The notes under the pieces were generated by a model that was not told the origin of the DNA, ran no database searches, and saw nothing but the letters and a program-made list of their open reading frames with translations. The translations under genes were made by a program, and so were the position numbers. A DNA stretch of 64,000 nt from Pseudonocardia sp. SCN 73-27 (GTDB lineage Bacteria > Actinomycetota > Actinomycetes > Mycobacteriales > Pseudonocardiaceae), in the NCBI GenBank assembly GCA_001725415.1, contig MEGH01000001.1, forward strand, positions 124,001-188,000, given 5' to 3'. Positions 7,015-49,257 of this stretch are shown here, piece after piece (the stretch's first letter is position 1; every line of letters starts with the position of its first letter).

Positions 7015-9345
<2,331 letters not shown>

Positions 9346-41670: not shown

Positions 41671-42309
41671 TCAGGCGCAGCGTTGGAACGCGGGCAGGTG
41701 GTTGTCCTGGGAGGCGGCACGGAGACCGTCGAGGACGCGGACGACGTCGGGGTACGCCCGGACCTGAGGGATGAGCTCGTCATATAGCTGCACGTCGGCC
41801 TGCTCCGCGGCGACACCTGCTGCGCAGGCGGCGGCACGGGTGGGCGGGGCCGGCCGCCCCGGAGAAGCGGTGGCCGGAAGTGCGACCTGGTGAGCTGCCG
41901 CGACGGCTTCGAGTTCGGCGATGTGTTGAGCTTCCGCTCGAGCGATCTGCGAGAACGGCGGAATCTGTCCGAAGGCGGCCACCACGTTGTCGTAGGTCGC
42001 CTTCGCGTCGCGTTCCTCCTCGATCGCGCGGGTCAGCACCGCGGTGAGGTCTGCACTCGCCGTCGGAGTGACCACTGCTGACGGAGTGGTCGCCGCGGGC
42101 GGTGTGGCCGCTGCCGGTGATGAGCCTGTCGGCTCGCTGTTCTGCGCGCATCCGGAGGCAAGGCCTCCGAGCAGCAGGGCGACGAGGAGGGCCTTGGGAA
42201 TTCTCCGAGCCGTCGCGATGGACCGCCGGCGCGACCGACTGGGCAGCAGTGCAGCCGACGGCGACGCGTTCACTGTGCTGACCTTCATGAGTGGCTGCTT
42301 CGTCGTCAT
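41671..42309 (-). CDS. DUF2202-type ferritin-like lipoprotein
   Basis: 212 residues. A basic N-terminus and hydrophobic stretch (IPKALLVALLLGGLASGC) end in a lipobox, so it is probably a surface lipoprotein. After a Pro/Ala/Thr linker comes a four-helix ferritin-like domain (LTRAIEEERDAKATYDNVVA, IARAEAQHIAELEAVAAAHQ) with the E-x-H metal-ligand pattern of DUF2202. Function unknown. ATG at 42309, with a possible internal ATG at 42288. Confidence 0.82.
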   Translation of the reverse strand: MTTKQPLMKVSTVNASPSAALLPSRSRRRSIATARRIPKALLVALLLGGLASGCAQNSEPTGSSPAAATPPAATTPSAVVTPTASADLTAVLTRAIEEERDAKATYDNVVAAFGQIPPFSQIARAEAQHIAELEAVAAAHQVALPATASPGRPAPPTRAAACAAGVAAEQADVQLYDELIPQVRAYPDVVRVLDGLRAASQDNHLPAFQRCA

Positions 42310-42480: not shown

Positions 42481-43012
42481 TCAGCGGACGAGGAGCGTGG
42501 CCATCATGCCGGCGCGTCCTCGTGGTCGAGGATGTGGCAGTGGTAGACGCTGCGACCGGTACGGGTGTTGACCGGGATGCGTAGCCGCACCCACCCGCCC
42601 GGTGGCACGAGCACCACGTCCTGCGGCACGGCGGCCATGGGTCTCCCGTCGCTGGCCGCGACGACGGGTGAACGGCCAGACGTGCAGGTGGAAGGGGTGG
42701 GCGAGCGGGCCGGTATCGGTCACGGTCCAGTCTCCGACGGTGCCGTGATGATCTGGTCGTCGCGGGCGGGATCGAAGGAGCGTTGGGGGAGCGGGTGGTG
42801 GTCGCGGAGGCAGGCGGGGGTTCGGCGGGCAAGGTGGCCGCAGCGCGGGTGTCGCCGCCGGGCCGTCGACGACCAAGGTCACGAGGGTGACCGGTCCTGT
42901 CGACACCGGTGGAGCGCCGCCCCATGCCGGCCATCGCGGGGCCCCGGTCGTAGGGGTTGGTGAGCAGGGTGAAGCGGCCGTGGCATTCGGGAGATGCGTT
43001 GATCAGCCGCCG
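42481..43012 (-). pseudogene. Multicopper oxidase C-terminal remnant
   Basis: Fragments in different frames reconstruct the last cupredoxin domain: RLINAS..., FTLLTNPYDRG, GPVTLVTLVVDGPAATPAL, DTGPLAHPFHLHVWPFT, VPQDVVLVPPGGWVRLRIPV, SVYHCHILDHED, AGMMATLLVR*. HPFHLH and HCH...H are the copper motifs. At least three frameshifts separate them, one being a 2-nt gain after DHED, and the first two domains are gone. Confidence 0.8.
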
Positions 43013-43524: not shown

Positions 43525-43743
43525 TCAGCGTGGCGTGGCCTCGATCCGCAGGGCGAGGGTGGGGCATGCCTCGACGGCGGCCCGGGCGTCGCGCTGGTCG
43601 TCGCGGCCCAGCGGCCGTCCGGTGCGGCCGTCGGCGAGGATGGGATAGCCCCATTCGTCCAGGTCGATGTGGTCGGGGAGAAGGTCTGCGCACAGCCCGT
43701 GCGCTGCGCAGGCGATCGGATCGACGCGTAGACGTTTGATCAT
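43525..43743 (-). CDS. Ferredoxin, 3Fe-4S type
   Basis: 72 residues: MIKRLRVDPIACAAHGLCAD gives two of the cluster Cys with the C-x2-H-G-x-C pattern of actinomycete 3Fe-4S ferredoxins, and ACPTLAL the last. Cytoplasmic single-electron carrier. Its ATG overlaps the NuoF-like stop (ATGA), so it is the last gene of the six-gene operon and the likely partner of that flavoprotein. Confidence 0.88.
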   Translation of the reverse strand: MIKRLRVDPIACAAHGLCADLLPDHIDLDEWGYPILADGRTGRPLGRDDQRDARAAVEACPTLALRIEATPR

Positions 43744-45062
43744 CGAAACTCCAGCGGGAAGATCATGGGAGCGCCCGCGGCGAGGCAGGGGCGACCGGTC
43801 AGGTGGTCGCGCAGGTCCGCGGAGAAGACGTCGAGAGCGGTCCGGGTGAGTCGTGCGGCGCCATCGGGCAGCGCACAGGCTCCTCTGCCGGTGACCAGGT
43901 CCAGTCGATGACGGAGGCGGTCGTGGGCGTGGCGGGCGTCGCGGGAGCCGGCGGCGATCGCGGCCAGATCGGCGGCGACGGCAGGGAGCCCGAACAGGCA
44001 CGGTCCGCACTGGCCCGCCGACTGATCGGCGAGGAAGCGGACCAGCCGGGCGGTGTGGGCGAGCCCGCACGCGCCGGACGGCAGCGGAAGCAGTGTCGGG
44101 ACGCCGAGCGCGGCACCTGCGGCGCGCATCGCGGTGTGCGTCAATGGCGTCTCGATCGCCGTCGCGGGCAGCCATGCACCGCCGTAGCCGCCGGACAGCA
44201 CCGCCTGGACGTGTCCGGAGGGGCCGCCGCAGAGCTCGATGGCCGCCCGCACGGTCGTCCCGGCGGCCACCTCGACCACCCCAGGGGTGTGGACGGCACC
44301 GTCGATGCTGACCAGCAGGGTGCCGGGTAGGTCGGGGGTACCCAGCTCGCGGAACCAGGGGGCGCCGTTGCGGGCTATGAGGGCGATGTGGGCGAGCGTC
44401 TCGATGTTGTCGACGAGCGTCGGGGCTCCTCCGACGCCGCGATCGGTGGGTCGTGGTGGGCTGGTCGTCGGCGTCGCCGGGCCGCCGGAGAGGAAGTTGA
44501 CCAGTGCGGTCTCCTCGCTGGCGACGTAGCGGGCGGGGACGCCGCGCACCCGGACCGGGACCGGGCCCTGCCGTTGCGCTGCGAGAGTGCGCAGGCGTGG
44601 ACCGGGGCCGTCGGGGCCGTCGTGGATGGCGAGGATCGCGGACTCGGCGCCGAGCGTGCGTGCGACGAGCTCGATGCCGTCGAGGACGAGATGGGGGGCG
44701 CAATCGAGCAGCGCGGCGTCCTTGCAGGAGGCCGGTTCTCCCTCGCACCCGTTGGCCACGACGACCGGGCGTCGGCGTCGGTCGGCGACCGCGCGCAGTT
44801 TGACCGAGGTCGGGAACCCTGCGCCTCCGCGCCCGCGCAGACCGGCGGCGTGGACGAGGTCGACGAGCTCGTCGGCGGTGAGATGCGGCAGTGGACCGTA
44901 CCGACGTCGATGGGTGGTGAGATCGTCGGCACGTCCGCCGGCGGACCAGCCGGCGAGCAGGCGTGAGGGGCTCGGCGTGGCCGCCCGAGCCCGGGTTGGC
45001 TGCGGAGTGTGATCCGTTCGCGGAACGGTGTCGGCAAGGGGGTGCGTGCCGGTTGGGTTCAC
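43740..45062 (-). CDS. NuoF-like NADH-binding flavoprotein
   Basis: 440 residues, complex I 51-kDa type: the NADH/FMN loop AGLRGRGGAGFPTSVKLRAV, VVANGCEGEPASCKD, VDNIETLAHI, a SLBB-like strand region (LVSIDGAVHTPGVVEVAAGT), and the C-terminal cluster domain with GQCGPCLFGLP and GRGACALPDGA. It should oxidise NADH (or reduce NAD) and exchange electrons with the ferredoxin. No NuoE or NuoG lies nearby. GTG at 45062 overlaps the stop of the SGAS-tail protein gene. Confidence 0.87.
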   Translation of the reverse strand: MNPTGTHPLADTVPRTDHTPQPTRARAATPSPSRLLAGWSAGGRADDLTTHRRRYGPLPHLTADELVDLVHAAGLRGRGGAGFPTSVKLRAVADRRRRPVVVANGCEGEPASCKDAALLDCAPHLVLDGIELVARTLGAESAILAIHDGPDGPGPRLRTLAAQRQGPVPVRVRGVPARYVASEETALVNFLSGGPATPTTSPPRPTDRGVGGAPTLVDNIETLAHIALIARNGAPWFRELGTPDLPGTLLVSIDGAVHTPGVVEVAAGTTVRAAIELCGGPSGHVQAVLSGGYGGAWLPATAIETPLTHTAMRAAGAALGVPTLLPLPSGACGLAHTARLVRFLADQSAGQCGPCLFGLPAVAADLAAIAAGSRDARHAHDRLRHRLDLVTGRGACALPDGAARLTRTALDVFSADLRDHLTGRPCLAAGAPMIFPLEFR

Positions 45063-45415
45063 GATGCTCCCGAGGTGACGTGAGAGATTCCCGGCGCTGT
45101 GTGCTGGGGCGCGAGCGTCGGCGGTTGCAGGCGTGATCCGCTTCCGACGTCTCCTCGACCGGCGACGGCCGATGGGCTGCCGTTCGGGGCGACGCTGTCG
45201 GGGGCCGTAGGTGTGTCGGAAGCGGTGATCGGATGGGCGAAGATCAGGGCGGCGACCGCGGTGGCGACGACGCCCCCTGTTGCGGTCCAGCTGGTGACGG
45301 TCCGGGTGCGACGCAGGCCCTCGTCGCGGGCGGCTCGGCGTGCACGGGGGTCGCGTGTCCCAGGGGCGCGGACGGGACGACCGCCGTTCGGCGGGGGTGT
45401 CCGGGTGGTGGTCAT
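45059..45415 (-). CDS. Single-pass membrane protein with C-terminal TSGAS tail
   Basis: 118 residues: a basic cytoplasmic N-terminus (RRAARDEGLRRTRTVTSW), one membrane segment (ATGGVVATAVAALIFAH), then a disordered Pro/Ser/Thr/Gly stretch ending exactly in GISHVTSGAS. The end resembles the ApbE flavinylation motif (S/T-G-A-S/T), but there is no FMN-binding domain. It is a paralogue of the protein at 46980-47438. Start ATG at 45415. Its stop overlaps the NuoF-like gene. Family not known to me; a flavin-carrier role is inferred. Confidence 0.75.
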   Translation of the reverse strand: MTTTRTPPPNGGRPVRAPGTRDPRARRAARDEGLRRTRTVTSWTATGGVVATAVAALIFAHPITASDTPTAPDSVAPNGSPSAVAGRGDVGSGSRLQPPTLAPQHTAPGISHVTSGAS

Positions 45416-45499
45416 GACCTCAGACAACCCGTCAATTCTTGGAGGTTCCGTGGGAGGTCGGAGTCGGTTCGGCACGCACAAGGTCACGGCGCACGGCGA

Positions 45500-46045
45500 T
45501 CACCTCAGGTGTTCGCTTCGCGATCCGTCGGACCAGATGAGTGCGCGCCACAACAGGCCGGCGGTCGCGGCGGCGACGCAGCAGAGAGTCAGGACGAGGA
45601 TCCACCCGGTCGTGGTGTCGGGGCCCCCGAGCCCGAGTCCGTGCACGACGGCGAGCGGCCAGCAGGCGTAGGCGGCCATGTGTACGACTCGCCAGGTCCG
45701 CAACCCTATCCGGGCGCGCAGCAGGCTGGTGAGGATCAGCGCGGCGAGCAGATCGAATGCGGCAGCGCCGAGGCCGAGCCAGAAAGCCTGGTAGCCCGAG
45801 GTGAAGGGGACGACGACGTCGACCCAGCGGATCGGCACGTAGCCGTCGAGCACGGCTGTGACGACGTGGAGCGCGACGAAGGCGACAGCCAGCAGAGAGG
45901 CGTTGCGGTGCAGGCGGGCCAGCGCGAACCGGGGCCAGCGCGCGGTCGCTGCGCGGGCGATGCCGGAGATACCGAGCACGAGGGTGGTCGTCAGCAGCAC
46001 GAGCGAGACGAGGCCGGCGGCCCGGCTGGCGTACCAGGTCCACAT
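45500..46045 (-). CDS. Ferric reductase-like transmembrane b-type cytochrome
   Basis: 181 residues with about six membrane segments. His residues sit in pairs on the helices (ARLHRNASLLAVAFVALHVV, TWRVVHMAAYACWPLAVVHG), as expected for two b hemes in the ferric-reductase domain (MsrQ/YedZ-like). It lacks the cytoplasmic FAD/NADPH part of true ferric reductases. ATG at 46045 overlaps the apbE stop. It is the probable route of electrons across the membrane. Confidence 0.85.
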   Translation of the reverse strand: MWTWYASRAAGLVSLVLLTTTLVLGISGIARAATARWPRFALARLHRNASLLAVAFVALHVVTAVLDGYVPIRWVDVVVPFTSGYQAFWLGLGAAAFDLLAALILTSLLRARIGLRTWRVVHMAAYACWPLAVVHGLGLGGPDTTTGWILVLTLCCVAAATAGLLWRALIWSDGSRSEHLR

Positions 46046-46983
46046 CAGAGATCGCCTTCGTTCTCCGGCGGCCACTGACCGATGGTGCGGACCTGGCCGT
46101 CGTCGCCGACCAGCCGTGCGGGGAGGCCCGCGGTGGTGAGCCACCCGGGCGCGGCGGCTCCGAGCAGGAGTGAGGCGGTGGCGGCGATGTTGGCGTCGAC
46201 GCAGGCGCCGGCGGCCACGGTGACGGTCCGCCAGCCACTCTGAGCAGGCAGCCCGGTACGTGGGTCGACCACGTGATGGCAGTGACGGCGGCCCCGCCGC
46301 CACCGTCGCCGAGTGGTGCCGGAGGTCGCCAGCCCGCCGGAGGCGAGGGAGATCACCGGGCCCGGGCCGGCCTGAGCGTGGTCGTCGGTGACATGTATCC
46401 GCCATCCGCCGGCCGGTGGAGGGCCTGCGACGGCGAGGTCACCGCCGAGGCTGATGAGTACTCCGCACCCGGTTCGCCCGGCGATCCGCGTGGCGGCCAG
46501 GTCGGCGGCCAGGGCTTTGGCGGTGGACCCGAGATCGATCCGGGTGCCGCGCGGGACGAGCAGCGAGCGATCGGCCGGGCTCCAGGCCAACCGCCACCAT
46601 CCGGGCGCCGGCACGGGCACGATGTCGGCATCGGTGTCGGTGACCTCGGCGAGGTCCCGGTCGTAGCCGAGGGCGTCCATGCACGTGCCGACGGTCGGGT
46701 CGAGGAGGCCGTCGGTGATCCTGGCTGCGCGCAGCGCGGCGTCGAGGTGCACTGCGAGGACGGCGCCCACCTGCACAGCGTGGCCGGCCTGGTGCTCGAC
46801 AGTGCGGACCTCGGAGTCGGGCCGGAAGCGCGAGCATGCTCGGTCGAGATCGTCGAGGTCCTGACGGAGCATCTCGACGGCGATCGGGAGGGCGATGCGG
46901 TCGGTGATCACCACGGTCGCGGTGGTCCCGATCGCGGGGAACGACTCGGAGGCATCGGGCCCGACGATCACCGGAGCCGTCAC
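46045..46983 (-). CDS. apbE: FAD:protein FMN transferase
   Basis: 312 residues of the ApbE family, which moves FMN from FAD onto Ser/Thr of target proteins. Motifs: FPAIGTTATVVI near the start, ITDGLLDPTVG, RIDLGSTAKALAADLAA (Mg/FAD site), VLISLGGDLAV and HHVVDPRTGLPA. No signal peptide or lipobox is visible, so export is not evident; this matters for targets with outward tails. GTG at 46983 overlaps the stop of the upstream TSGSS-tail gene, pointing to that protein as substrate. Confidence 0.88.
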   Translation of the reverse strand: MTAPVIVGPDASESFPAIGTTATVVITDRIALPIAVEMLRQDLDDLDRACSRFRPDSEVRTVEHQAGHAVQVGAVLAVHLDAALRAARITDGLLDPTVGTCMDALGYDRDLAEVTDTDADIVPVPAPGWWRLAWSPADRSLLVPRGTRIDLGSTAKALAADLAATRIAGRTGCGVLISLGGDLAVAGPPPAGGWRIHVTDDHAQAGPGPVISLASGGLATSGTTRRRWRRGRRHCHHVVDPRTGLPAQSGWRTVTVAAGACVDANIAATASLLLGAAAPGWLTTAGLPARLVGDDGQVRTIGQWPPENEGDL

Positions 46984-47438
46984 GAGGAGCCCGAGGTGGC
47001 GTGGGAGTAGCTGCGGACCGTCGGAGGGGACACCGGTGCAACCGGTGCCGCGGGCGGCTGCAGCCCCTGCCCGGACGCTCCCTGCCCGGACGCTCCCTGC
47101 CCACTCGGCGACTGCCCAGCCGATCCTGACGACGAGTGATGGGTGGTGTGTGAGCGCCGTGGAGCCGGGATGGATGTGGTCGGGGCGGCGGTGTCGGGGT
47201 TCACGCTCTGGCCGGGGGAGACATCGCCCGGGGAGTCCTGGCTGCCGAGGGTGGGAGCGGTCGGGATCGTGTCGGCGGCGGCGTCGGAGGTCTGGGCGCC
47301 GGCGGGGCTCTGCGCGAGCACGAACGCGGCGAGCGCGGTGGCCGCGGCACCGCCGACCGCAGTCCAGGTCGTGACCGTCGAGGCGCGGCGCAGGCCCCGG
47401 TCACGAGCGTCGGCGCGGATGCGTTGTGACTCGTTCAC
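46980..47438 (-). CDS. Single-pass membrane protein with C-terminal TSGSS tail
   Basis: 152 residues with the same plan as the 45059-45415 protein: a basic N-terminus (RIRADARDRGLRRASTVTTW), one membrane segment (AVGGAAATALAAFVLAQ), a long low-complexity exterior including three GQGASGQG-type repeats, and the end RSYSHATSGSS. The shared SHxTSGxS end, at the very C-terminus of both, is the most conserved part outside the membrane region. GTG at 47438. First gene of the operon; its stop overlaps apbE. Confidence 0.72.
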   Translation of the reverse strand: MNESQRIRADARDRGLRRASTVTTWTAVGGAAATALAAFVLAQSPAGAQTSDAAADTIPTAPTLGSQDSPGDVSPGQSVNPDTAAPTTSIPAPRRSHTTHHSSSGSAGQSPSGQGASGQGASGQGLQPPAAPVAPVSPPTVRSYSHATSGSS

Positions 47439-47563
47439 GCGCCCCACCCAACTCCGGTGTTCTTGGAGAATCCTGGGTATCACTGCACCCGGCTGGAGCA
47501 TCCGAGGTCGGCGCATGCAGGTCCGCCGCGGTGAGCGAGGTGGCGCGGCGGCCGACGCGGTCC

Positions 47564-48013
47564 ATGATTGCCGCCGTGACCACCGAACCCGGACATGACG
47601 TCGCCGCGCACATCGGCCGGCCGTGGGTGCTGCTCGTCGAGGACGAGGCGGAGTTGGCGGGGACGCTGCCGGTCGGCGCCGCCCGCTTGGCGCTGGACGC
47701 GCGCGAGGTCGTCGCGGGTTCGACACGGACTGCGTTGTCGCAGCGCGAATGCGACCTGCTCGCGGCGTTGGCGGCGCGGCCGCGGCAGGTGTTCGGGCGT
47801 GACGACCTGCTGGCGCCGGCGTTCCAGGAGGCGGAGAACCCGGTGGTCGTCGACACCTGTGTGCACGACCTGCGGCGCAAGCTCGGTCGCGGTGTCGTCG
47901 AGACCGTTCGCGGCCGGGGCTACCGCCTCGGCACACCTCTCCCGGAGGCAGACGGTCCGGACGGCAGCTCGACGGACGGCGCGGGCGCTACCGCCGACCG
48001 GCCGCTCGGATGA
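47564..48013 (+). CDS. OmpR-type response regulator lacking most of its receiver domain
   Basis: 149 residues. It starts like a normal receiver (WVLLVEDEAELA) but passes in frame to GTLPVGAARLALDAREV and a complete winged helix (ALSQRECDLLAALAARPRQV, VDTCVHDLRRKLGRGVVETV, RGRGYRLG). About 90 residues including the phospho-acceptor Asp are absent. It may be an in-frame deletion product that still binds DNA. Start uncertain (ATG 47564 or GTG 47576). Its stop overlaps the kinase gene. Divergent from the six-gene operon by 125 bp, so a likely regulator of it. Confidence 0.78.
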   Translation: MIAAVTTEPGHDVAAHIGRPWVLLVEDEAELAGTLPVGAARLALDAREVVAGSTRTALSQRECDLLAALAARPRQVFGRDDLLAPAFQEAENPVVVDTCVHDLRRKLGRGVVETVRGRGYRLGTPLPEADGPDGSSTDGAGATADRPLG

Positions 48014-49257
48014 CTCGCGGTGGCGCCACGGGCGAAGCCGTTCTCGCCCGGCGTGCCGCCGTGCGGCTCGGGGTGCAGGCTGCGGTGCTCGCGGGACTGA
48101 TCGTCGTCGCGTTGACGGCGGTGGCCATCGTGGTCCTGCTCGACGCGCAGCGAACCCAGGTCGGCGCGGCGTTGCAGGAGGCGATCGACCGTGCGGACGA
48201 CGCCACGGACCCGCCTGCGGGCATGTTCCTGGTGTTGCGTGAGCCGACCGGGTCGGTGAGAGCGACCCCGAGGCTGCCAACCGGTGTCGCGGACCCGAAC
48301 AGCCTCTCACTGGCCGCAGACGGAGCATCGGTACCGACGAGGGAGCGCAGTGTTCGTGGGGTGCGGTACGAGATCGCGACGCAGTTGCGTGACGACGGCG
48401 TCACCGTCCAGGCGATCCTCGACCTGACGGCCAACCACAGCGCACGCAACCAGCTCCTCGCCACCATGTTCGCCACCGGGCTCGCCGGGCTCCTCGTGGC
48501 CGGGGCGGCCGGGACCTGGCTCGGCCGCCGGGCCCTGACCCCGCTCTCGGGTGCGCTGTCGCTGCAACGACGCTTCGTCGCCGACGCGGGCCACGAACTG
48601 CGGACCCCGCTGACGTTGCTCGGCACTCGCGCGCAGCTGCTGCGCAGGCGCCTGCGCCGTGATCCCGACGCCGATCCGCAGCTGCTCGCGGAGGTCGAGG
48701 GTGTCGTCAGCGACGCGGGCCGACTCACCGCGATCCTCGAGGACCTGTTGCTCGCCGCCGATCCGTTGGGCGTGCGGCCCCGCGAGCCGGTGGACCTGGC
48801 CGAGCTGTGCCGCGACGTGCTCGCCGCCGCGGCAGCCGCCGCCGAGGACCGAGGCATCGAGTTGCGGCTCGACGTCGAAGGAGCCGTGCGGGCCGTCGGA
48901 TCCACGGCGGCCCTGCGTCGGGCGGTCACCGCGCTGATCGACAACGCCGTGCGGCACGCGACCCACACCGTCGACGTCAGGGTGCGCTCCGAGGGTGCCA
49001 CCGCCGCCCTCGAGGTCGCCGATGACGGGAGCGGCGTCGATCCGGCGGTGGCGCCTCGGCTGTTCGAACGGTTCGCCACGGCCGCTCGGCCGGGGGAGTC
49101 GGGTGAGCGTCGCTACGGTCTCGGCCTCGCCCTCGTGGCGGAGATCGCAACCGCCCACGAGGGCCGGGTGACACTCCTGGGCACCACCGGCGGCGCCACG
49201 TTCCGGCTCTCGATTCCCGCCGCCGACCCGTCTTCACAGCCTCCAAGGAAGCTCTGA
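48010..49257 (+). CDS. Sensor histidine kinase
   Basis: 415 residues: two membrane segments (~22-44 and ~150-172) flank a short extracytoplasmic sensor of about 100 residues. Then come an H-box FVADAGHELRTPLTLLGTRA, N-box LIDNAVRHA, G-boxes VADDGSGVD and YGLGLALV. ATG overlaps the response-regulator stop (ATGA). The kinase appears intact although its partner regulator lacks the phospho-acceptor site. Confidence 0.88.
   Translation: MTRGGATGEAVLARRAAVRLGVQAAVLAGLIVVALTAVAIVVLLDAQRTQVGAALQEAIDRADDATDPPAGMFLVLREPTGSVRATPRLPTGVADPNSLSLAADGASVPTRERSVRGVRYEIATQLRDDGVTVQAILDLTANHSARNQLLATMFATGLAGLLVAGAAGTWLGRRALTPLSGALSLQRRFVADAGHELRTPLTLLGTRAQLLRRRLRRDPDADPQLLAEVEGVVSDAGRLTAILEDLLLAADPLGVRPREPVDLAELCRDVLAAAAAAAEDRGIELRLDVEGAVRAVGSTAALRRAVTALIDNAVRHATHTVDVRVRSEGATAALEVADDGSGVDPAVAPRLFERFATAARPGESGERRYGLGLALVAEIATAHEGRVTLLGTTGGATFRLSIPAADPSSQPPRKL

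Follow-up and report, generated by a model that had tools for sequence, protein, structure and literature searches.

ApbE, a transferase that moves flavin mononucleotide (FMN) from flavin adenine dinucleotide (FAD) onto proteins, targets a motif of seven residues, D-x-x-[ST]-G-A-[ST] (PMC12052999). The closest described systems are found in the survey of Meheust et al. 2021 (PMC8238504), which reports an MsrQ-like cytochrome together with apbE, and a NuoF-like protein in 31 clusters. To be retained in that survey, a cluster needed a signal peptide or lipid site on one of four target proteins (ApbE, FMN-bind, DUF3570 or DUF2271), and 4% of the surveyed genomes (670) had apbE without a known substrate. 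Here we describe an apbE operon of Pseudonocardia sp. SCN 73-27, located in a stretch of 64,000 nucleotides (contig MEGH01000001.1, positions 124,001 to 188,000; hereafter the window, to which all coordinates refer), in which apbE is accompanied by two short membrane-tethered proteins, called tails below, that end in a sequence resembling the ApbE motif. The operon is real and conserved across many actinobacteria, and we read it as a variant of ApbE-based electron transfer with a predicted C-terminal flavin site that belongs to no domain. The six genes lie on the minus strand, where a preliminary description made from the window alone had placed them, and comprise the following features.

46980..47438, minus strand: tail1, with an Arg-rich N-terminus (RDRGLRRASTVTTW), a single transmembrane segment, a disordered-looking arm of about 110 residues and the end SHATSGSS
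46983..47006, minus strand: final eight codons of tail1 (SHATSGSS), the predicted FMN site being the last Ser
46045..46983, minus strand: apbE of the tail type, FAD:protein FMN transferase fold, with S221, H237 and T269 kept and N265 at the position of the usual catalytic/metal Asp
45500..46045, minus strand: NOX/MsrQ-like transmembrane cytochrome b, with four conserved His (46, 60, 122, 135) and no flavin/NAD domain
45059..45415, minus strand: tail2, of the same architecture as tail1, with the end SHVTSGAS
45062..45085, minus strand: final eight codons of tail2 (SHVTSGAS)
43740..45062, minus strand: NuoF-like NADH:FMN/4Fe-4S subunit, with conserved Cys332, 352, 355 and 396
43525..43743, minus strand: single-cluster ferredoxin, CxxHxxC...CP, with three conserved Cys

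The gene order is tail1-apbE-cytochrome b-tail2-NuoF-like-ferredoxin (43525-47438), the GTG start of tail1 at 47438 having been picked by position, so that an in-frame start further upstream is possible. Five overlaps of start and stop codons had been claimed, and four of the five junctions have one, as 4 bp GTGA at tail1/apbE and tail2/nuoF, 4 bp ATGA at nuoF/ferredoxin and 1 bp TGATG at apbE/cytochrome, whereas the cytochrome and tail2 are separated by a gap of 84 bp. The placement of tail2 between the cytochrome and nuoF was not met in the other loci scanned. Pfam assigns four of the products to ApbE (E-value 7e-50), Ferric_reduct (1.7e-8), Complex1_51K (5.1e-33) and Fer4_15 (3e-11). Neither tail matches a Pfam or NCBIfam family above cut-off, and the FMN-binding domain PF04205 is not in them; in both, the N-terminus is Arg-rich and is followed by a single hydrophobic segment and by an arm rich in Pro, Ser, Thr, Gly and Ala. 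They terminate in SYSHATSGSS and GISHVTSGAS, as expected from the shared end SH(V/A)TSG(A/S)S noted earlier, and at the level of the motif the SGAS of tail2 is an exact instance of [ST]GA[ST] and the SGSS of tail1 a variant.

An FMN-binding domain gene, typical though not universal in MsrQ-like flavinylation clusters, was not found in the operon. This absence, already pointed out in the preliminary description, extends to the whole genome, in which profile searches gave zero matches to FMN_bind, DUF2271 and DUF3570, so that these tested substrate domains are absent there. The genome harbors three apbE genes; immediately upstream of each is the gene for a short single-pass protein with SGAS or SGSS at its C-terminus. 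A tail model built from 18 tails (its own four included) recovered these four, all located in the three apbE operons, and no fifth at E <= 0.01 among the 108 of 208 first-look candidates that were scored, 108 being the maximum scored per genome.

An ApbE match is present in 29 of 60 genomes of the same genus. The closer ApbE type (at least 44% identity) has an adjacent tail in all 19 loci read, three of which are from the Pseudonocardia sp. SCN 73-27 genome itself; five matches of this type had no locus of their own, of which one (G000:C4, within L005) was read. None of the 11 loci with a more distant ApbE gene (L024-L034, 30-40% identity) has a tail beside it. Four of these (L031-L034) adjoin an FMN_bind match, a domain found in 11 of the 60 genomes, and the other seven (L024-L030) form a separate degenerate group whose members have all lost the catalytic Ser, His and Asp to other residues (7/7), possibly representing a repurposed pseudo-enzyme. 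The member at L028 lies between genes for a fatty acid desaturase and an MFS transporter (Pfam), and most others look alike by eye, L024 being without the desaturase. When 25 genomes of the genus were searched with the tail model, none of the 18 without the closer ApbE type had a tail at E <= 1e-5 (two weak matches were near 0.003); matches in the seven that have it were inevitable, the model having been made from their tails. The tail ends of the same-genus locus L008 and of P. dioxanivorans (L037) are identical to the window's.

The association is far more general than the window alone could show. The best 80 loci with a tail-type ApbE among the matches listed, referred to below as the named loci, come from Pseudonocardia, Amycolatopsis, Streptomyces and other Actinomycetota including Acidimicrobiia and Thermoleophilia, as well as from two Dormibacterota and one metagenome-assembled genome labelled Acidobacteriota. 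The open reading frame (ORF) upstream of apbE ends in an exact [ST]G[ASG][ST] in 73 of the 80, and in 70 of the 80 when this ORF is selected blind to the motif, by codon bias and hydrophobicity. Four of the remaining seven loci have single-residue variants (SGQS, SGVS, SGNS and SKAS), L086 carries the motif six residues ahead of the C-terminus, L069 has a divergent tail ending in SGGS, and L110 has none. The motif is more frequent than expected by chance, because only 6 of 918 other ORFs of the same loci end in it and five of these are extra or displaced tails; within the arms it occurs at 36 of 7466 positions. The co-occurrence of tail and apbE, which the preliminary description had put forward as a check, holds in nearly every locus read within the main group. 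In a sample of 246 genomes from across the phylum, the tail-type profile matched an ApbE at E <= 1e-50 in 19, that of Pseudonocardia sp. SCN 73-27 among them.

A second suggested check, that conservation is concentrated at the C-terminus, gave a similar outcome for the main group. It was carried out on 97 tails (88 distinct, near-copies of the same species being included in the row counts), chosen out of 100 by a loose [ST][GK]x[ST] end. The information per position in the 88 distinct tails is 1.46-3.2 bits at -1 to -4, partly owing to that selection, 1.15-1.72 bits at -5 to -7, free of it, and 0.15-0.93 bits at -8 to -30, so that within the arm only the final seven residues are strongly conserved. 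This block is in register with the seven-residue ApbE target motif. A second motif, L-x-[PA]-P, is found 10-40 residues from the end in 37 of the 88 tails, as compared to 3.3 expected by shuffling. The arms are 34-203 residues long, with a median of 78.

Topology and signal peptides were called from hydrophobicity and charge counts alone. The charge counts favour an N-in/C-out orientation in 94 of the 97 tails, which would place the C-terminus outside the cell. The opposite arrangement, in which a cytosolic C-terminus would let the flavin arm shuttle electrons between NuoF/ferredoxin and the inner heme, would suit the cytosolic appearance of ApbE, the NuoF-like protein and the ferredoxin and the apparent lack of a signal peptide on ApbE, but it runs against this charge rule and would assign to the arm a role that the ferredoxin already fills; we regard it as very unlikely. 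It is also unlikely, if somewhat less so, that the tail is a cleaved secretory protein, its FMN peptide being set free to diffuse outside the cell as a shuttle. An A-x-A stretch does follow the hydrophobic segment in 75 of the 97 tails; however, the arms are Ala-rich, so that such a stretch would be expected by chance, and their length suits tethering. Export by the twin-arginine (Tat) pathway was considered as an answer to the topology puzzle and is not supported as a rule: a twin arginine lies near the transmembrane segment in 73 of the 97 tails and is replaced elsewhere (for example LQR in L008 and RHR in L011).

The enzyme encoded beside the tails is a distinct type of ApbE, as judged from the residue at the catalytic/metal Asp position. 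The window protein matches PF02424 with 170.5 bits (cut-off 25.6), and its AF2 model (predicted local distance difference test, pLDDT, 91) has a template modelling score of about 0.8 to FmnB and TmApbE, up to 0.81 (FmnB 7esa). The catalytic residues of the Vibrio cholerae enzyme are Ser241, His257 and Asp285 (PMC12052999). The first two, S221 and H237 in the window protein, are kept in 99 of 99 tail-type rows (90 distinct), and the position of the Asp is Asn in all 99, so transferase activity is not guaranteed. This position was placed by HMMER alignments and by equal spacing with FmnB (Ser257-His273-Asp301 versus 221-237-265), and we infer that it is also that of the metal-site Asp, D283 in the Escherichia coli protein (PMC4767422). 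It is Asp in the FMN_bind-related type, both in the four FMN_bind-adjacent enzymes of the genus (4/4) and in 29 of 29 class-wide homologues. Among the latter, 18 loci have a detectable FMN_bind-like end D..SGA[ST] nearby, with the motif 17-21 residues from the C-terminus, and none of the 29 has a tail. Among 19 more distant relatives the same position is E (9), N (8) or D (2), so that the Asn goes closely with a C-terminal acceptor in the main group, though not universally.

C-terminal peptides can also act as sorting signals, docking ligands or degrons, and these roles were weighed for the tails. The SGAS end might be a recognition peptide for docking, processing or degradation, with ApbE acting on another protein or as an FAD hydrolase. 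The Asn at the metal/catalytic Asp is compatible with this, as is the hydrolysis of FAD by the Treponema ApbE homologue (PMC4767422). Yet none of the three tested ApbE substrate domains is available in the Pseudonocardia sp. SCN 73-27 genome, the tail end is in register with the seven-residue ApbE motif, and the tail is missing from all 29 loci of the other ApbE type, and we hold this explanation to be highly improbable.

As the preliminary description remarked for the window protein, the tail-type ApbE has no obvious signal peptide: in a hydrophobicity scan of 98 rows the median was 1.24, and the top five rows reached 1.8-2.1, mostly on a VLLVT-like strand. The FMN_bind systems of the genus, inspected by eye, also combine a signal-less ApbE with an exported-looking substrate and raise the same topology question, so cytosolic flavinylation ahead of export may be general in actinobacteria. 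For the tails, modification in the cytosol before or during export is most likely, given the lack of an obvious signal peptide on ApbE; the C-terminus of the tail would be made last and cross last.

The genes that would supply the electrons are also well conserved. In 62 of the 67 named loci with at least 3 kb of downstream sequence, the cytochrome, nuoF and ferredoxin genes follow apbE in that order, 60 of them plainly and two (L070 and L077) with a short spurious nuoF piece overlapping the cytochrome and the main nuoF match after it; 58 of these 62 complete loci have the strict tail. A cytochrome follows apbE in 66 of the 67 loci with enough downstream sequence. Putative cofactor ligands are kept too: in the cytochrome four His (79-80 of 80 loci), in the NuoF-like protein four Cys (68-69 of 72) and in the ferredoxin three Cys (67-68 of 68). 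The window cytochrome (181 residues) scores 35 bits against PF01794 (cut-off 28), and Ferric_reduct is its only match above cut-off; the FAD/NADPH-binding C-terminal domain of NOX is not present. By Foldseek, its model (pLDDT 89) is closest to the membrane cores of NOX5, STEAP and SpNOX. The NuoF-like protein obtains 208.4 bits against the equivalog TIGR01959, below the cut-off of 558.65.

Taken together, the gene content, ligands and C-terminal motif support the earlier proposal that the tails are minimal FMN carriers fed by NADH, NuoF and ferredoxin through the heme protein. In a first, strongly supported step, the co-encoded ApbE would move FMN from FAD onto the last Ser of the tail (S-G-A/G/S-S-COOH). 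One transmembrane helix would anchor the tail N-in/C-out, with FMN at the tip of a flexible arm. Electrons would then pass from NADH to the NuoF-like protein (FMN, 4Fe-4S), the one-cluster ferredoxin, the inner and the outer heme of cytochrome b and the tethered FMN, a route suggested by the conserved genes and cofactor-ligand residues. Finally, the swinging flavin would hand them to an extracytoplasmic acceptor, for which no gene was seen near the operon. The gene set, residues and motif can be read directly in the sequence, and flavinylation, topology, electron direction and acceptor follow from them by inference. We consider this reading in full, a self-contained module that moves electrons across the membrane and has a natural flavin tag without a domain as its outermost carrier, to be probable; our confidence was lowered slightly because the motif is weak in distant relatives.

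Two genes divergent from the operon bear on a different function for the module.

47426..48013, plus strand: OmpR-type response regulator ORF (Pfam)
48010..49257, plus strand: sensor histidine kinase, partner of the response regulator (Pfam)

The regulator ORF matches the DNA-binding domain only, and its receiver domain seems shortened. Neighbours of the tail loci were scanned on hand-picked, mostly longer ORFs (75 of 134 downstream and 84 of 149 upstream, out of 143 and 195 predicted with an approximate gene finder), and the first 25 families of the tally were considered for each side. OmpR-type response regulators (16/84) and histidine kinases (7/84), both among the upstream ORFs, were the commonest families, and when a constant extra partner beyond the five genes was sought, only these recurred. 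The tail could be flavinylated within an NADH oxidase, a ferric reductase or a redox sensor for the neighbouring two-component system, with no long-range outward conduit. The predicted NOX/STEAP-like fold of the cytochrome would agree with this, as would the frequency of the regulators and kinases, a pair of which flanks the window operon, and the lack of a recurrent acceptor enzyme in the scanned ORFs. On the other hand, the regulators are not universal in the scanned sets, and a sensor would not obviously need its own NADH-NuoF-ferredoxin supply. We see this as a genuine possibility, although not the favoured one. Downstream of the operon, the fragment at 42481-42906 (HPFHLHVWPF) resembles multicopper oxidases weakly, with a score under the cut-off, and the lipoprotein-like ORF at 41671-42309 has weak family hits only.

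Besides the Asn of the tail-type ApbE and the method of topology calling, several observations weigh against an outward module with a domainless flavin carrier. Position -7 of the tails, corresponding to the Asp of the motif, is most often His (38 of 88) and Asp in 4 of 88, and the motif Ala is often replaced by Gly; in one tested substrate, changing the Asp at the motif start to Ala had a minor effect only (PMC12052999). The Foldseek matches of the cytochrome are weak (best E 0.022, none at 0.001). No further redox family or terminal acceptor gene recurred among the first 25 families tallied for the 75 downstream and 84 upstream ORFs scanned. Some loci are incomplete: L050 and L066 are without nuoF and ferredoxin, L059 without nuoF and L069 without ferredoxin, and in L110 no tail was found beside a tail-type apbE, the cytochrome, nuoF and ferredoxin being absent too. 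For L023, a partial match of the closer ApbE type, an upstream ORF was not seen. In the more distant relatives, from the other genomes of the phylum-wide sample, the strict C-terminal motif occurs in 2 of 19 loci read; the majority of the rest carry a comparable arm whose end is variant or displaced (SSGS, SRAS, SRGS, TGGSTPPP), and L117, L118 and L128 show no clear tail end. In G347, a genome from a different family within the order, a tail and apbE are paired with no cytochrome within 1.45 kb downstream, and a second tail is unlinked to the apbE. Moreover, of the 37 named genomes with a tail that were checked, 26 contain FMN_bind as well, which speaks against a general replacement; the tail would rather supplement FMN_bind, the Pseudonocardia sp. 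SCN 73-27 genome being a case of the tail alone.

Some of these loci have particular features of their own. In Streptomyces nymphaeiformis, both kinds of carrier occur side by side, the contig with the tail operon having an FMN_bind match (L042:5-382) about 4 kb upstream of it. The tail-type apbE of L110 is followed by a family-92 glycosyl hydrolase. The second tail of G347 (L158, about 7500-7710) ends in VVSGGS and adjoins a membrane-anchored-looking ORF without Pfam match, and no apbE, cytochrome, NuoF or ferredoxin was found in the 16 kb read around it. Stand-alone second tails with the ends TTTGAS or TSTGAS were identified at L092:1780-2049, L103:1607-1984 and L105:1641-2156; they are encoded upstream of the main operon, on the other strand, next to regulator genes. 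The distant L120, L123 and L125 have as tail end a Cys-flanked PSG[SN] segment (CYTTPSGSTVCS, CYTSPSGNVTCY and CYSTPSGNVRCY, respectively), a possible disulfide-looped version of the site.

The tails provide a concrete candidate substrate, with a matched enzyme subtype, for these actinobacterial apbE genes. Because the set of PMC8238504 was filtered for signal peptides or lipid sites, an ApbE without a signal peptide whose tail was not among the listed targets would normally have been excluded, which could explain why the tails were missed, and the tail-associated apbE genes probably lie mostly outside that set and its 4% group. Our search of titles and abstract starts in the open-access literature, with subscription papers and preprints outside its scope, found no description of such tails. 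If the proposed module is correct, covalent flavin can carry electrons across the cell envelope without a folded pocket, and protein labelling would gain a natural flavin tag for C-termini, together with the enzyme that serves it. The Asn-for-Asp exchange further raises the idea that the substrate end assists catalysis: the free alpha-carboxylate of the last Ser would replace the missing Asp carboxylate, limiting the enzyme to chain ends, and the product would be a tethered flavin, the electron-carrying counterpart of lipoyl and biotin swinging arms. Such a new class of ApbE substrates, combining the lack of a flavin-binding fold, a chain-end acceptor, a matched ApbE subtype, carboxylate-assisted catalysis and a flexible-tether product, is offered tentatively, as a rather doubtful proposal.

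Compared with known systems, the window cytochrome shares its predicted fold and conserved His positions with the transmembrane core of NOX and STEAP, but it is without their FAD/NADPH domain, and its electrons appear to come from the NuoF-like protein and ferredoxin. The NuoF-like protein has the Nuo51 FMN, SLBB and 4Fe-4S domains of the complex I NADH subunit, yet it is far below the equivalog cut-off (208 vs 559 bits) and is encoded beside a single ferredoxin. The operon has ApbE and a PF01794 cytochrome in common with the MsrQ-like flavinylation clusters of Actinobacteria, and in some of them also a NuoF-like protein, whereas those typically include the FMN-binding domain gene that is missing here (PMC8238504). 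An ApbE site on an unstructured C-terminal extension is likewise found in FMN_red proteins, in which the FMN is near the folded flavin pocket of the same protein, whereas the tails have no recognisable domain (PMC11334425). The Flavin-tag (Tong et al. 2021, via PMC12052999) also places a short D-x-x-[ST]-G-A-[ST] at a terminus, with FMN on the last residue, and such seven-residue tags perform best at N- or C-termini; it is an engineered tool, whereas the tails are natural, with the Ser at the extreme C-terminus, the Asp mostly lost and a disordered-looking, membrane-tethered arm.

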